64,000 bases of DNA from an uncultured Bacteroidales bacterium (lineage in GTDB: Bacteria; Bacteroidota; Bacteroidia; Bacteroidales; UBA11471), in NCBI GenBank assembly GCA_944325415.1, contig CALUZW010000008.1:1-64000 (forward strand), given 5' to 3'. Every line of letters begins with the position of its first letter. Position 1 is the first letter of the stretch. Shown here one piece after another: positions 39,763-46,497 of the stretch. The notes below the pieces were generated by a model. The model ran no database searches. It had not been told where the DNA came from and was given only the letters and a program-made list of their open reading frames with translations. Made by a program: the position numbers and the translations under genes.

Positions 39763-42336
39763 ATGCGTAAATATATTACGGGCATCTTTATTCTGCTCCT
39801 GTTAATACTCCTGCCTTCCAAAGCCGGGGCACAGACGACCACCATTACCGGTGTGGTAACCGACTCCATTACCGAGGCTCCACTCTCTTTTATTTCGGTG
39901 TTCTTGGGGGAAACAACCACCGGCGTGATGACCGACGAAAACGGCCGCTACACGATACGCACCTCGCGCACCGACTTTTCCGAGGTGGGGGCTACGTCGC
40001 TCGGCTATCGCGAGAAGCGCATACCCGTGGAACCGGGAGGCACGCATGTGGTGAATTTTGCCCTGCGGCCGTCGGACTACATCTTGAAAGATGTCGACGT
40101 AAAACCCAGGAAAGAGAAATACAGCCGCAAAAACAATCCTGCCGTAGAATTTGTCAAGAAACTTATTGCGCTGCGCGACGAGAACGACCCCGAGAATCAC
40201 GACTACTTCTCGTATGAGCAGTACGACAAGATGACGATGGCGCTCAACGATTTCTCCGAAGAGAAGAAAGACAAGTGGATATTCAAGAATTTCCAGTTCC
40301 TCTTCGACTTTGTCGACACCTCGGAGATCACCGGCAAGCCCATACTCACCGTATCCATTCGCGAGAAGGTGTCGAAGAACTATTATCGCAAGAACCCCGA
40401 GCAGCGTCGGCAGAAGGTCGAGGGTGTCTATCACGAAGGTGTCGACGACATGTTCAGCCGCGAAGGCATCACGGCATTTTACAACGAGGTGTTCAAGGAG
40501 ATAGACATTTTCCAGAACAACATCACGCTGATGCTCACCCGTTTTGTGAGTCCGCTCTCGACGCTGGGTCCGGCTTTTTACAAATACTATCTGGGCGACA
40601 CGCTCATGCTCGACGGCGAGAAGTGTCTCAAACTGCAATTCGTGCCGTTCAACTCCGAGTCGGCCGGCTTTGTAGGTACTCTCTATGTAACGCTCGACTC
40701 CACCTATTTTGTGAAGAAGCTCGACATGGCCGTGCCCAAAGACATAAACCTGAACTTTGTCGAAGACCTCATTATCAGTCAGGAATTTACCCGTACCGCC
40801 GACGGTACGCGTATAAAGACCAAAGACGACATGGTGGTCGAGTTCCAGATGATGCCCGGTACCCCCAAGCTCTATACCCGACGGCTGGCCATGTATCGCA
40901 AACATAGCTTTGAACAGCCCGTGGAGCAAGATGTCATGGCACTCTTCGATCAGGAAAAACGAGTGGTCGTAGACGAGATGGCCGAGGTGATGCCGGCGTC
41001 GTTCTGGGACGATAACCGGCAGACCGAGCTGAAAAAGAAAGAGGGCATGGTGAGCCAGTTGCTGGAAAAACTGCGTTCCAACCCCGTGTACTACTGGCTC
41101 GAAAAAATTATCAAGATATTGATTACGGGATATGTCGAGACCAACGAAGACAAAGACCTGAGCAAGTTTGACTTCGGCCCCATGAATACCACCATCAGCG
41201 GTAACACCGTCGAGGGTGCCCGTTTGCGGGTGGGCGGTTTCACGACGGCCAACCTCAACAAGCACTGGTTCTGGAAAGGTTACGTTGCCTACGGTTTCAG
41301 AGACCACCGGGTGAAATATTCGTCGCGCGTCGAATATTCGTTCAACGAAAAGAGCTATTCGCCGGCCGAGTATCCCATTCACTCCCTGGCCCTGACCCAC
41401 ACCTACGACATCAACCAGCTGGGACAGCAGTACCAGTACACCAACAAAGACAATGTGTTCCTGGCCCTGAAACGCATGAGCGACACCAAGACTTCGTATT
41501 TGCAGAATACCGAGCTGTCGTATCAACGTGAGCACGACTTCGGATTTTCCTACGGAGCCAACCTCCGCTACAAAATCGAGGAGTCGACCCGCTGGGTGCC
41601 CTTTATCGAGAACAGCGGCAAGGTACACAAATATTACAACTGGGCCGAGACCGAGGTGCATCTGCGCTATGCCCCCAATGAGAAGTTCTACCAGACCAAG
41701 GGTATGCGCTATCCCATCAACCGCGACGCTCCCATCTTTTTCCTTTCGCATACTTTCTCGCCGAAAGATTTCCTGGGCAGCTCCTATATGATAAACCGCA
41801 CCGACTTCCGCTTCTCCAAAGACTTCTGGTTCTCGGCCTTCGGACATCTCGAAACCGAATTCCAGTTCAGCCATGTGTGGAATCAGGCTCCGTTTACGAT
41901 GCTCATCTTGCCCAATGCCAACCTCTCGTACACCATACAGGAGGGGTCGTACAGCCTGTTGAGCCCGATGGAGTTTGTACTCGACTCATATGCCTCGTGG
42001 GACATTACCTATTTTGCCAACGGTATATTGTTCAACCGTATTCCCGGCATAAAGATGCTGCGCATGAGAGAGGTGTTGTCGTTCAAAGGCTTCTTCGGAA
42101 ATCTGTCGAACAAGAACAACCCCTTGCTGACCGATCGTAACCCCAACCTGTGGCGTTTCCCGGGCGAGAATGCCGTCTATGTCATGAATCCCCGCCGGCC
42201 CTATATGGAATTTGGTGCCGGTCTCGACAACATATTCAAGATTCTCCGCATCGAGTATGTATGGCGTCTTACCTATCGTGAACATACCGATGTGGCCAAG
42301 GGCGGTGTGCGTATAGCTCTGCATTTTTCGTTCTGA
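39763..42336 (+). CDS. DUF5686 outer-membrane protein with carboxypeptidase-like N-terminal domain
   Basis: An 857-residue exported protein with a signal peptide to about residue 24. A carboxypeptidase-regulatory-like (CNA-B/SusC-N type) beta-sandwich follows (ITGVVTDSITEAPLSFISVF to about 105). Next come a charged helical part and a C-terminal barrel-like region (450-857) ending in Phe (GGVRIALHFSF). This is the DUF5686 architecture, related to TonB-dependent receptors but without a TonB box or SusC plug. Function is unknown. It is a single gene with its own promoter box. Confidence 0.85.
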   Translation: MRKYITGIFILLLLILLPSKAGAQTTTITGVVTDSITEAPLSFISVFLGETTTGVMTDENGRYTIRTSRTDFSEVGATSLGYREKRIPVEPGGTHVVNFALRPSDYILKDVDVKPRKEKYSRKNNPAVEFVKKLIALRDENDPENHDYFSYEQYDKMTMALNDFSEEKKDKWIFKNFQFLFDFVDTSEITGKPILTVSIREKVSKNYYRKNPEQRRQKVEGVYHEGVDDMFSREGITAFYNEVFKEIDIFQNNITLMLTRFVSPLSTLGPAFYKYYLGDTLMLDGEKCLKLQFVPFNSESAGFVGTLYVTLDSTYFVKKLDMAVPKDINLNFVEDLIISQEFTRTADGTRIKTKDDMVVEFQMMPGTPKLYTRRLAMYRKHSFEQPVEQDVMALFDQEKRVVVDEMAEVMPASFWDDNRQTELKKKEGMVSQLLEKLRSNPVYYWLEKIIKILITGYVETNEDKDLSKFDFGPMNTTISGNTVEGARLRVGGFTTANLNKHWFWKGYVAYGFRDHRVKYSSRVEYSFNEKSYSPAEYPIHSLALTHTYDINQLGQQYQYTNKDNVFLALKRMSDTKTSYLQNTELSYQREHDFGFSYGANLRYKIEESTRWVPFIENSGKVHKYYNWAETEVHLRYAPNEKFYQTKGMRYPINRDAPIFFLSHTFSPKDFLGSSYMINRTDFRFSKDFWFSAFGHLETEFQFSHVWNQAPFTMLILPNANLSYTIQEGSYSLLSPMEFVLDSYASWDITYFANGILFNRIPGIKMLRMREVLSFKGFFGNLSNKNNPLLTDRNPNLWRFPGENAVYVMNPRRPYMEFGAGLDNIFKILRIEYVWRLTYREHTDVAKGGVRIALHFSF

Positions 42337-42466
42337 TGCAGCAATCTCCGATAAAGAGGCATAGGAGAGTGGCTGATTCCCAAGCAACTGTTGTGAAGTG
42401 TGAATAAGTGCGAATTTGTTGATAAAAACAAATGGCGAATATCTTTTCAAATTGGCGCGAAAGCAC

Positions 42467-42474
42467 TACCTTTG
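42467..42474 (+). promoter_or_regulatory. -7 box of the Mpl-like/DUF4924/rfbD/prfC group
   Basis: TACCTTTG matches the consensus about 77 bases before the first ATG; the -33 element is weak. Confidence 0.5.
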
Positions 42475-42550: not shown

Positions 42551-43462
42551 ATGACGGATAATATTCATATTATTGCTTATGGAGATGACCTTTTGTCGCG
42601 TGTGGCATACGCCATGCAGGAAAAAGGTCTGAATGTTTCTTGTTCGGGCTGTACTCCCGAGTTGGTGCCTATGCTCGAACAGAAAGGTGTTCTGGTCGGA
42701 ACCTTGCAGCAAGTCATCGCTTCGGGACGTACTGTAAATTATGTTGTTTCGGCTTTGGCCGGCGGAAGCCGTCATGCCGACGTCGAGACAGAGTATGCCG
42801 ATGCTTTGCACCTGCCTGTTGTTCCGGTATCGGATCTGTTCACCTCTCTGACCGAGAACAAAGCGCTTGTCGTGGAGTGTAATTCGCGTTTTCCCAACCG
42901 TATTCTCTCCATCATCTGGTACACCCTGCAATCGCAGAAGCGTAATTGCGACTATCTGACCGAGACTTTCATGCAGGGGCTCAACCGCAAGGTGGCTCTC
43001 TCGGAAAACACCCGGATATGCCTTCTTGACGGCGATCTGCTGCTGCATACCGAAAGCCGGAATTACAAATCGAACATCTTGGTGCTATCTTCCCTTCTGT
43101 GGAAAGAATCCCCTCAATATCCCACCTTCGAAAGTTATCTCGAAGTGTGGCACAAAGCCGTGAATTCCATCGACAGGAACGGTATACTTATCTACAATCA
43201 GGCCGTTACCGTGTTCCAGGAGTGGGCCGAGAATGTGCGCGAAGACATTACCGCTATACCCTTCAAGGCACACCCTTATCGCAAGGAAGGCGACATCTGC
43301 TTCCTTACCGGTGCGAAAACCGAGATGGAACTCTCTTATCCCTGCGACGAAGAGTTGTTGTGCGACATCAACGCGGCCCGGCTTGTGTGCCGCCAGTTAG
43401 GTGTGGCCGACAAGTCGTTCTATCAGATGATTGTATCGGCCGATTTCCTGAAAAATAAGTAA
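42551..43462 (+). CDS. Mur-ligase (Mpl)-like protein lacking catalytic motifs
   Basis: A 303-residue protein I align by eye with the first two domains of UDP-N-acetylmuramate:tripeptide ligase (Mpl). The N-terminal Rossmann part is IHIIAYGDDLLSRVAYAMQ (5-23). The ATP P-loop (GSHGKT in Mpl) reads CNSRFPN (110-116). The segment WKESPQYPTFESY (184-196) replaces the metal-site Asp-His, and CDEELLCDINAARLVCRQLG (265-284) lacks the His-Asn. The C-terminal ligase domain is absent. The frame is intact, so this looks like a retained pseudoenzyme rather than a decayed gene. DUF4924 follows after five bases. Its role, perhaps a muropeptide sensor or scaffold, is unknown. Confidence 0.65.
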   Translation: MTDNIHIIAYGDDLLSRVAYAMQEKGLNVSCSGCTPELVPMLEQKGVLVGTLQQVIASGRTVNYVVSALAGGSRHADVETEYADALHLPVVPVSDLFTSLTENKALVVECNSRFPNRILSIIWYTLQSQKRNCDYLTETFMQGLNRKVALSENTRICLLDGDLLLHTESRNYKSNILVLSSLLWKESPQYPTFESYLEVWHKAVNSIDRNGILIYNQAVTVFQEWAENVREDITAIPFKAHPYRKEGDICFLTGAKTEMELSYPCDEELLCDINAARLVCRQLGVADKSFYQMIVSADFLKNK

Positions 43463-43467
43463 TCCCC

Positions 43468-44013
43468 ATGCTAATCGCCCGGCAGAAGAAACAGGAAAAT
43501 ATCGCTGAATACCTGCTCTACATGTGGCAGGTAGAGGATATCATACGGGCCTGCGGGGGAGATATCGACCTCATACGGCAACGCATCATAGATGGTTACC
43601 AGGGGTTGTCGCCTGAGATACGCCAGGAGATGACCGACTGGTATGACAACCTGTGCGAGATGATGCGCATCGAAGGTGTGATGGAGAAAGGCCACCTGCA
43701 AATCAACAAGAATGTCATTATCGAACTCACCGATTTGCACCAGCGTCTTCTCAAATCGACCCGAGAGCCTTTTTACGGAGCGGCCTTCTTCAAGGCGCTG
43801 CCCCATATCGTGGAGTTGCGCGCCCGTTCGGGAAACGCCGAAGCCGGAGAGATAGAGACCTGCTTCAATGCGCTTTATGGCATACTGCTGCTGCGGTTGC
43901 AGAAGAAGGCCGTCTCGTCCGATACCGAAAAAGCCGTGCAAGCCATCACCCAATTTCTGGCTCTCCTCTCCGAAAAGTACAAACAAGAGAGAGCCGGCGA
44001 ACTTGAATTATAA
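43468..44013 (+). CDS. DUF4924 family protein
   Basis: A 181-residue, mostly helical cytoplasmic protein which I recall as DUF4924, usually beside rfbD and prfC in Bacteroidales. IARQKKQENIAEYLLYMWQV opens it and a helical domain follows; there is no catalytic motif or signal peptide. It starts five bases after the Mpl-like gene, so the pair are probably translated together. Function unknown. Confidence 0.75.
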   Translation: MLIARQKKQENIAEYLLYMWQVEDIIRACGGDIDLIRQRIIDGYQGLSPEIRQEMTDWYDNLCEMMRIEGVMEKGHLQINKNVIIELTDLHQRLLKSTREPFYGAAFFKALPHIVELRARSGNAEAGEIETCFNALYGILLLRLQKKAVSSDTEKAVQAITQFLALLSEKYKQERAGELEL

Positions 44014-44034: not shown

Positions 44035-44901
44035 ATGTCAACCATTCTTGTAACGGGAGCCAACGGACAGTTGGGCAACGAAATGCGCAACCTGTCGGGC
44101 AATGACCGTGCCAATCGGTATATCTTTACCGATGTTCAGGAACTCGATATAACCGACCCTGCCCGCGTGCAGGCTTTCCTGTCGGAAAATACTGTCGATT
44201 TTGTGGTAAATTGTGCTGCCTATACGGCTGTGGATAAGGCAGAAAGCGAAATTGAGCTGTGTCGGAAAATAAATGCCTTTGCCGTGGAAAATCTAGCCAA
44301 AGCCTCGGCGGCGACAGGCGCGAAAATGATACATGTCTCGACCGACTATGTGTATAGCGGTACCCATTATATGCCCTATGTCGAGAGTGATGCCGTGGCC
44401 CCCACTTCGGTCTATGGCGTTACCAAACTCGAAGGCGAACAGTTGCTGCTGGCCGCCAACCCCGCATCGGTCATCTTGCGCACGTCGTGGCTCTACTCGC
44501 CCTACGGCAACAATTTCGTAAAGACCATGCTGCGGCTGGGACGCGAAAGAGAGAAACTCTCGGTCGTATTCGACCAGGTAGGAACGCCTACTTATGCAGC
44601 CGACCTGGCTGCTGCCATTGTTACCATACTTAACGCACCGGAGTTTGTACCCGGAATTTATAATTTCTCCAACGAAGGTGTGTGCAGCTGGTACGACTTC
44701 ACCCTCACCATACACCGCATGGCCGGCATCGATACCTGTCGGGTGTCGCCCATCGACACGGCCGACTATCCCTCGGCCGCCACACGCCCCTTTTACAGCG
44801 TGATGAACAAGAAAAAGATAAAAGCTACCTACGGTGTGGAGATACCCCACTGGGAAGAGAGCTTGCAGAAATGCATCGCCATATTGGAGAATAAAAATTA
44901 A
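44035..44901 (+). CDS. rfbD: dTDP-4-dehydrorhamnose reductase
   Basis: A short-chain dehydrogenase/reductase (288 residues) making dTDP-L-rhamnose. NAD(P)-binding motif TGANGQLG (7-14), VVNCAAYTAVDKAE, active-site STDYVYSG (Tyr-X3-Lys as YGVTK, about 124-128) and the substrate block SWLYSPYGNNFVKTML. The rest of the rml pathway is not in this window. It lies 15 bases before prfC. Confidence 0.93.
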   Translation: MSTILVTGANGQLGNEMRNLSGNDRANRYIFTDVQELDITDPARVQAFLSENTVDFVVNCAAYTAVDKAESEIELCRKINAFAVENLAKASAATGAKMIHVSTDYVYSGTHYMPYVESDAVAPTSVYGVTKLEGEQLLLAANPASVILRTSWLYSPYGNNFVKTMLRLGREREKLSVVFDQVGTPTYAADLAAAIVTILNAPEFVPGIYNFSNEGVCSWYDFTLTIHRMAGIDTCRVSPIDTADYPSAATRPFYSVMNKKKIKATYGVEIPHWEESLQKCIAILENKN

Positions 44902-44916
44902 AACCCCCGATACAAC

Positions 44917-46497
44917 GTGAGTACATTTACCGAAGAGATTCAGAAACGACGCACCTTTGCCATTATCAGTCACCCCGATGCCGGTAAGACCACTCTTACC
45001 GAGAAACTACTGCTGTTTGGCGGCGCCATTCACGTGGCAGGAGCCGTGAAGTCAAACAAGATAAAGAAGACCGCCACCTCGGACTGGATGGAAATCGAGA
45101 AACAGCGCGGTATATCGGTAGCCACATCGGTGATGGGTTTTAATTACGGCGATTACAAAATCAATATTCTCGATACCCCCGGTCACCAGGATTTTGCCGA
45201 GGATACCTATCGCACACTGACTGCCGTAGATAGCGTAATTATTGTAATTGATGCGGCAAAAGGTGTTGAGACACAGACCCGTAAGCTGATGGAGGTGTGC
45301 CGCATGCGCAAGACCCCCGTCATTGTCTTTGTCAACAAGCTCGACCGTGAAGGTCAAGACCCTTTCGACCTGCTCGATGAGATAGAGACCGAACTCAAAA
45401 TAGCCGTGCGTCCACTCAGTTGGCCCATCAACATCGGCCAGCGTTTCAAGGGCGTGTACAATATCTATGAAAAAAATCTCAACCTGTATACACCCAGCAA
45501 GCAGGTGGTAACCGAGGCTATCGAGTTTCGCGACATCAACAGCCCCGAACTCGAAAAGCACATCGGTGAGAGCGATGCCGCCAAGTTGCGGGCCGACCTC
45601 GAACTGATTGCGGGCGTTTATCCCGATTTCGAAGTAGAGAAATACCTTGCCGGCGACCTGGCCCCCGTATTTTTCGGGTCGGCACTCAACAACTTCGGTG
45701 TGCGGGAGTTGCTCGACTGTTTTGTCGAGATAGCCCCTTCGCCCCGCCCCGTGCAGGCCGTCGAACGTCTGGTGCGTCCCGAAGAGGAACCTTTCTCGGG
45801 TTTTGTATTCAAGATTCATGCCAATATGGATCCCAACCACCGCAGTTGCATCGCTTTCGTGAAAGTATGTTCGGGCGTCTTTATCCGTAACGAAAACTAC
45901 AAGCATGTGCGATTGGGCAAGATGATGCGCTTTTCGAGCCCTACGGCCTTCATGGCACAGCGCAAGTCGACTGTCGACGAAGCCTATCCCGGCGATATCG
46001 TGGGTCTGCCCGATACTGGAAATTTCAAGATAGGCGATACCCTCACGGCCGGTGAGGAGTTGCACTATAAGGGATTGCCCAGTTTCTCGCCCGAGATGTT
46101 CAAGTATATCGAGAATACCGACCCCATGAAGACCAAGCAGCTCAACAAGGGGCTCGACCAGTTGATGGGAGAGGGTGTGGCCCAGATGTTTGTCAACCAG
46201 TTCAACGGCCGGAAAATCATCGGTACGGTAGGACAGTTGCAGTTTGAGGTCATACAGTACCGGTTGCTGCATGAGTACGGCGCCCAGTGCCGCTGGGAGC
46301 CCCTCAGCCTATATAAGGCCTGCTGGGTAGAGAGCGACGATGCCGAGGCACTCGACAACTTCAAGAAGCGGAAATACCAGTTTATGGCCAAAGACCGCGA
46401 CGACCGCGACGTGTTCCTCGCCGACTCGGGATATGTGTTGCAAATGGCCCAGAGCGACTTCCCCAAAATCCGGTTCCACTTCACTTCCGAATTTTAG
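44917..46497 (+). CDS. prfC: peptide chain release factor 3
   Basis: A translational GTPase that removes RF1/RF2 from ribosomes after termination. 526 residues with the G1 motif [15 protein letters not shown], switch regions [12 protein letters not shown] and [18 protein letters not shown] (G4) and a C-terminal RF3 domain. It starts with GTG at 44917, as the family N-terminus [15 protein letters not shown] begins at the next codon. Confidence 0.97.

Follow-up and report, generated by a model that had tools for sequence, protein, structure and literature searches.

An Mpl-derived pseudoenzyme kept by selection next to a DUF4924 gene in Bacteroidales

Introduction

Why would bacteria keep a Mur ligase gene whose product has lost its active site? 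This question is raised by a gene in the window, by which we mean the whole stretch of 64,000 nucleotides analysed here from an uncultured Bacteroidales bacterium. The gene (42551..43462, +) encodes a protein with Mur ligase domains 1 and 2, as judged by homology, profile and fold, and a sequence-only reading had taken it for an Mpl-like protein that is catalytically stripped and selected for a non-catalytic role. Whether it is a ligase at all, whether it is under selection, where it came from and with which partner it may act are addressed in turn.

Results

Homology to Mpl. The open frame runs from the ATG at 42551 to the stop at 43462 and encodes 303 amino acids. The protein alone gave no significant match to Pfam or NCBIfam, and a single-sequence scan of the genome contigs for the pseudoenzyme found none, whereas an alignment-based scan did find matches. 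The curated cut-off of the NCBIfam Mpl model (TIGR01081, EC 6.3.2.45) was not passed by the window protein, which is weak evidence, as it was passed in 0 of 295 Bacteroidales genomes, intact Mpls included. With tblastn, the window protein found full-length Bacteroidales Mpl at 24-30% identity and E-values down to 1e-34. Matches were present in 200 of the 295 whole genomes of the order; most are full-length (~455 amino acids) with an intact GSHGKTT P-loop, and a minority are ~305 amino acids long and stripped. From the Pfam families PF01225, PF08245 and PF02875, relatives of the pseudoenzyme match the first two Mpl domains only. A profile built from the window's genus only aligned to intact Bacteroidales Mpls in hhalign with a probability of 100 and an E-value of 2e-42 over 289 columns at 30% identity; the reversed-sequence control gave a probability of 0.1 and two MurCs gave 57% (E 1e-4). 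A profile of the short homologues only reached the Mpl structures from Psychrobacter (3HN7) and Neisseria (3EAG) at 7.6e-20 and 1.1e-16, respectively. The AlphaFold model (mean pLDDT 91.4) had 3EAG as its top PDB match (Z 26.2, 293 residues, rmsd 3.0), with MurC structures so close behind at Z ~25.6 that the fold search is a tie between them. Homology of the gene to Mpl domains 1-2, far beyond chance, is confirmed, and the protein is a member of the Mur ligase superfamily by descent and fold. The frame is open as the sequence-only reading had described it; that reading had also staked its Mpl assignment on a structural match to Mur ligases, and the match was found.

The nearest intact relatives are full-length Mpl-like ligases of Bacteroidales (for example L100, L043, L047 and L044), which have ~455 amino acids and all sites intact. 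In the full-length Bacteroidales proteins, sequences of the type SSPID(R/K)RPKF resemble the Mpl motif (S/T)AFFDKRSK, which other Mur ligases reportedly lack (PMC3060825). NCBIfam scores these proteins somewhat higher as MurC than as Mpl, with neither cut-off passed; the motif, together with a separate MurC in the genome, suggests that they have Mpl activity.

Loss of the catalytic sites. The window protein was compared site by site with the residue roles published for PaMpl (PMC3060825); all positions lie on the + strand. The P-loop, GSHGKTT in intact Mpl, is replaced by NSRFPNR (residues 111-117; 42881..42901). The metal site EGDE reads DGDL (residues 160-163; 43028..43039), by which the metal Glu has become Asp and the compensating Glu has become Leu, and the next six residues, the region of the Mpl motif, are deleted. 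In place of the Asp-His pair, whose His binds the second metal in Mpl and MurC (PMC3060825), there is KE (residues 185-186; 43103..43108), and the GxHN motif, which closes domain 2, is replaced by DEEL (residues 266-269; 43346..43357). The positions of the PaMpl metal residues Thr115, Glu178 and His210 (PMC3060825) are occupied by Asn, Asp and Glu. The UDP-binding Gly loop has changed from GG to GD and the Asp that contacts the diphosphate (roles in PaMpl, PMC3060825) to Gly. The protein ends at about reference residue 309 of 456, upstream of domain 3, and its stop falls exactly on the domain 2/3 boundary. Three domains, P-loop, UDP loop and Asp, metal residues: none of these marks of an Mpl was found, and the replaced P-loop, Asp-His pair and GxHN motif and the missing third domain had been read from the sequence before. 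Judged from its residues, ligation of the tripeptide to UDP-MurNAc by the window protein would be impossible.

The loss extends to the relatives. At 121 columns of domains 1-2 that are at least 90% conserved in intact Mpls, the pseudoenzymes have the same residue at only 34. The metal His is kept in 0 of 30 pseudoenzymes and so is the Asn of GxHN; of these 30, 1 retains the second Gly of the UDP loop and 4 retain the UDP Asp. A Mur-type P-loop was seen in only three sampled pseudoenzymes (L017, L022, L026). The P-loop decay is graded: GSKGKSS in part of family f3, GGQGKSS in L026, GSRGKKT in many Parabacteroides, SKNR in f31, DAKYPTR or DVRYPTR in most of f61, and NSRFPNR in the window.

Purifying selection and newly fixed residues. 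By the Nei-Gojobori method, 49 close pairs of pseudoenzyme genes gave a median dN/dS of 0.079 (range 0.035-0.156); the pairs are non-independent, a few duplicate records are repeated and some dS values approach saturation, but even with these caveats the ratios are far from neutral. For the same pairs, where measurable, the neighbouring genes gave 0.084 (RfbD) and 0.053 (DUF4924). The window and its nearest congener differ by a dN of 0.099 and a dS of 1.09, a ratio of 0.091, and the frame is open in all pseudoenzyme loci examined. The selection on the frame that had been supposed before is therefore borne out, at a strength similar to that on rfbD. The protein is a pseudoenzyme, i.e., a homologue without catalytic residues that is maintained by selection; that it is a dead Mpl kept by selection is almost certain.

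Some residues, variable in intact Mpl, have become fixed in the pseudoenzymes: R155, R209, R230, D232, T234 and R281. Arg155 (43013..43015, +) is present in all sampled pseudoenzymes. RNGI (residues 209-212; 43175..43186, +) corresponds to an R-x-G-K motif of the clade, in which Arg209 is 92% conserved, unlike in intact Mpl, and REDIT (residues 230-234; 43238..43252, +) to an R-x-D-I-T motif whose Arg, Asp and Thr are invariant in the clade. AARLVCRQLG (residues 275-284; 43373..43402, +) forms a helix end that is a signature of the clade. Several of the new residues just precede the strands 156-160, 212-216 and 234-238 of the AlphaFold model. These strands are parallel in Mur ligases; if this holds here, these residues would probably be on the other side of the sheet from the dead active site.

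Distribution and ancestry. Within the sample of 295 Bacteroidales genomes, the short form is carried by 21 from seven families: the window's own (f1), f61 (Coprobacter), f88 (Gallibacteroides), f105 (Parabacteroides), f31 (Azobacteroides), f3 and f78, some names being inferred by matching to named records. The sequence-only reading would have given way if near relatives lacked the gene; it is present in 6 of the 7 genomes of the window's genus, the one without it being 70% complete, and in six further families.

A separate active mpl in the same genome had also been expected. Neither the window's genome, which is 83% complete, nor three near-complete congeners (94-99%) yielded one, and no Bacteroidales-type intact Mpl was detected in any of the 21 pseudoenzyme genomes, in which MurC was seen; an extra paralogue beside an active mpl is therefore rejected. 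The f3 genomes contain, beside the normal MurC and away from the pseudoenzyme locus, an additional MurC-like ligase with the P-loop GGTSGKST (L139:625-2061 and L140:714-2099), which is weakly related to Bacteroidales Mpl (27-28% identity) and could be either a further MurC or a substitute for Mpl that was acquired.

Three relatives (L043, L047 and L100, the last on the same contig as G294) have an intact Mpl at the same locus, in the order mpl-DUF4924-rfbD-prfC. For all short forms with enough flanking sequence DUF4924 is the very next gene, and for nearly all of them rfbD and prfC follow. Since the intact enzyme has the same neighbours, it decayed in place: the decayed gene is the lineage's own mpl at the ancestral locus and not a second copy. 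Of the earlier interpretation, an Mpl-derived, in-frame, stripped, selected and undescribed protein stands, whereas a pseudo-copy in addition to a working mpl does not.

In the gene tree the pseudoenzymes form one clade (UFBoot 100), with the Mpl of Paludibacteraceae and the DUF4924-linked trio as nearest intact relatives. Topologies that split this clade were rejected by the AU test (p <= 2.3e-4), and a subset of slower members still formed one clade; grouping by long branches is accordingly rejected as its cause, with the deepest branching not fully safe. The C-termini of most pseudoenzymes differ in position by no more than a few residues, which supports one truncation. On the tree, the loss of the enzyme happened once (UFBoot 100). 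The pseudoenzyme gene itself is cleanly absent from family f29, where the locus reads DUF5686-DUF4924-RfbD-PrfC, and is missing in f60 and f109 too. It was probably lost more than once; the proxy species tree (DUF4924-RfbD-PrfC) is weak, with many supports between 39 and 80, and leaves the number of losses uncertain. In L182 (f29), 7 nt separate the DUF5686 and DUF4924 frames.

Gene neighbourhood. Upstream of the pseudoenzyme gene lies a gene for a DUF5686/carboxypeptidase-regulatory-like outer-membrane protein (39763..42336, +), which in f29 abuts DUF4924. A 690-aa open frame antisense to it (39802-41874, -) is probably a codon-usage shadow. A candidate Bacteroidota-type promoter (TTTt-19-TACCTTTG, one mismatch; 42444..42474, +) about 77 nt before the ATG weakly suggests that the pseudoenzyme gene opens an operon, such matches being common by chance (with up to 2 mismatches, 90 in the window against 55 expected). 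The next gene of the operon encodes a DUF4924 protein (43468..44013, +; 181 aa; Pfam, all-helical model), followed by those for an RfbD-like dTDP-4-dehydrorhamnose reductase (44035..44901, +) and a PrfC-like peptide chain release factor 3 (44917..46497, +), both conserved neighbours and, like the DUF5686 protein, named by sequence resemblance.

The coupling to DUF4924 noted earlier is evident in the window, where 5 nt separate the two genes, and is tighter elsewhere: the pseudoenzyme stop and the DUF4924 start share ATGA, a 4-nt overlap, in 24 of 41 loci, and overlap by 7 nt in 3 more. DUF4924 was found in 21 of 21 pseudoenzyme genomes as against 117 of 274 others (raw counts that ignore kinship). 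No PDB entry emerged as a confident relative of DUF4924 from a fold search, in which the best Z was 5.3 and no Foldseek match had an E below 0.001. An S4/Hsp15-like gene is located near DUF4924 on the same strand in 20 of 39 sampled loci from 12 families, often together with genes for Pth and L25; in L189, one of these 20, the S4 gene is at a different position. A run L25 (rplY/Ctc)-pth-Hsp15-like S4 that ends in DUF4924, which often overlaps or abuts the S4 gene, was seen, away from the pseudoenzyme locus, in other Bacteroidales: L169, L170, L172, L180, L183, L184, L187, L190, L191, L193, L194, L200 and L202. Such factors have roles in the rescue and quality control of bacterial ribosomes: Hsp15, of which RqcP is a close homologue, keeps peptidyl-tRNA stable on stalled 50S subunits, and Pth frees chains during quality control (PMC11317155). 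This gene context is a hint, and a reasonable lead, that DUF4924 may be a translation or ribosome-rescue factor.

Other cell wall genes. The window's genome contains intact MurC-F and, beside a separate MurF (L008), a MurF-alanine racemase fusion in an 824-aa frame (L010:1-2346, -), all named by sequence resemblance. An AmpG-like permease (G000:C18:35467-38299) is encoded ~1 kb from murF. AmpG-like genes are commoner with dead than with intact Mpl in the 30 genomes tested, so co-loss of AmpG with Mpl is rejected: the trend is opposite, and pseudoenzyme genomes often keep AmpG-like genes.

Discussion

The results trace the gene back to an ancestor with an intact Mpl at a locus of the order mpl-DUF4924-rfbD-prfC. 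This enzyme first lost its peptide-binding third domain and then, step by step, its UDP, ATP and metal sites; the two-domain remainder was kept under strong purifying selection, and a new set of residues was fixed. We propose that the pseudoenzyme ligates nothing any more and acts by binding. Its most likely partner would be the DUF4924 protein, which is always co-encoded and usually translationally coupled. DUF4924 lies beside L25, pth and Hsp15-like genes elsewhere and beside PrfC here, and the pair may therefore have its role in translation or ribosome rescue instead of wall recycling. The statement as a whole, a selected mpl remnant that is a non-catalytic partner of DUF4924, possibly in translation, derives its function from gene context and is tentative, at somewhat less than an even chance. 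Some points speak against the partnership. The linkage to DUF4924 is already seen beside intact Mpl in three relatives and so is perhaps inherited and not functional; DUF4924 is widespread without the pseudoenzyme, and several related families have no such gene, from which it follows that the pseudoenzyme is not essential to DUF4924; and genomic context is guilt by association.

A wall-related role, such as the sequence-only reading had proposed with the binding of cell-wall precursors or the regulation of recycling, is possible but not favoured, since most members have lost the UDP Gly loop and Asp, the newly fixed residues are distant from the former active site and DUF4924 occurs among translation genes in other families. 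As a sensor of wall precursors, the protein would still hold UDP-MurNAc, UDP-sugars or recycled peptides in its two remaining domains, with no catalysis, and would signal the amounts of these ligands to a partner. The retained fold of the UDP-MurNAc and ATP domains, the AmpG-like permeases and the Mur-type P-loop of some members (GSKGKSS in f3, GGQGKSS in L026), in which residual nucleotide binding is conceivable, are in line with such a sensor. It is nevertheless rather doubtful: the second Gly of the UDP loop survives in 1, the UDP Asp in 4 and the metal His and GxHN Asn in 0 of 30 members, the window protein has lost all of them, and the newly fixed residues are elsewhere. Pseudoenzymes often regulate their catalytic relatives, and with MurC-F intact in the window's genome the protein could, in a mixed dimer or complex, scaffold an active Mur ligase such as MurC or regulate it allosterically. 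This is less probable still, as there is no linkage to the murC-F cluster and it is with DUF4924 that the coupling is conserved. Instead, the fold could have been rebuilt for another reaction around the newly fixed Arg, Asp and Thr, as several charged residues are both invariant in the clade and new to it; their location before strands, probably facing away from the old active site, resembles an interface more than a pocket, and a new enzyme is improbable. A decaying pseudogene that is still open by chance would agree with the long branches and with related families, f29 among them, from which the gene is cleanly missing, but it is very improbable in view of a dN/dS that is 0.079 in the median and 0.156 at most, the open frames, the clade-specific invariant residues and a single truncation point common to seven families. 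A split ligase, in which a domain 3 from another gene restores activity, has in its favour only the truncation exactly at the domain 2/3 boundary and can practically be dismissed, because the P-loop and metal site are dead, all Mur_ligase_C matches in the window's genome are within the MurC, MurD, MurE, MurF and FolC frames, no orphan domain 3 was found in the pseudoenzyme genomes, and DUF4924 is all-helical and does not have the domain-3 fold.

Compared with Mpl, the pseudoenzyme has the sequence and fold of domains 1-2 and the neighbours common to three intact relatives, but it is devoid of domain 3, the P-loop, the UDP loop and the metal and adenine residues, the Mpl motif is deleted and new residues are fixed. 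A Mur-ligase relative in a non-wall complex is known from plants, in which the MurE-like PAP11 has a role in the plastid-encoded RNA polymerase (PMC9456514). A plastid RNA polymerase chain, 8xzv_J, presumably PAP11, was among our fold matches (Z 18.2); PAP11 is of MurE type and its likeness to the pseudoenzyme is one of fold. MurT of the MurT/GatD amidotransferase is likewise a Mur-ligase-like protein with a co-encoded partner (PMC3267633), but it is catalytically active and belongs to another family.

In the open-licence literature searched we found no description of such an Mpl-derived pseudoenzyme, in agreement with the sequence-only reading, and in the literature searched no bacterial pseudoenzyme derived from a Mur ligase; such proteins are scarcely known in bacteria. 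This one is real, conserved, selected and apparently undescribed in the open-licence literature. As MurC or Mpl are the best profile matches of some members, annotation by these matches could give them those names, and the capacity of these bacteria for wall recycling would then be misstated. How an enzyme became a non-enzyme can be read from the intermediates preserved at or around one locus, namely the intact enzyme, P-loop-keeping truncates, fully stripped forms and clean losses. The conserved DUF4924 protein is flagged as a possible translation factor, and the presence of the pseudoenzyme gene in Parabacteroides and Coprobacter, culturable gut genera, makes its function directly testable. 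That mpl turned once into a non-catalytic subunit of a DUF4924-based translation or ribosome-rescue factor of Bacteroidales is unlikely as matters stand; if true, it would link the fold of a peptidoglycan enzyme to the ribosome, as plants placed a MurE-like protein in the plastid RNA polymerase.
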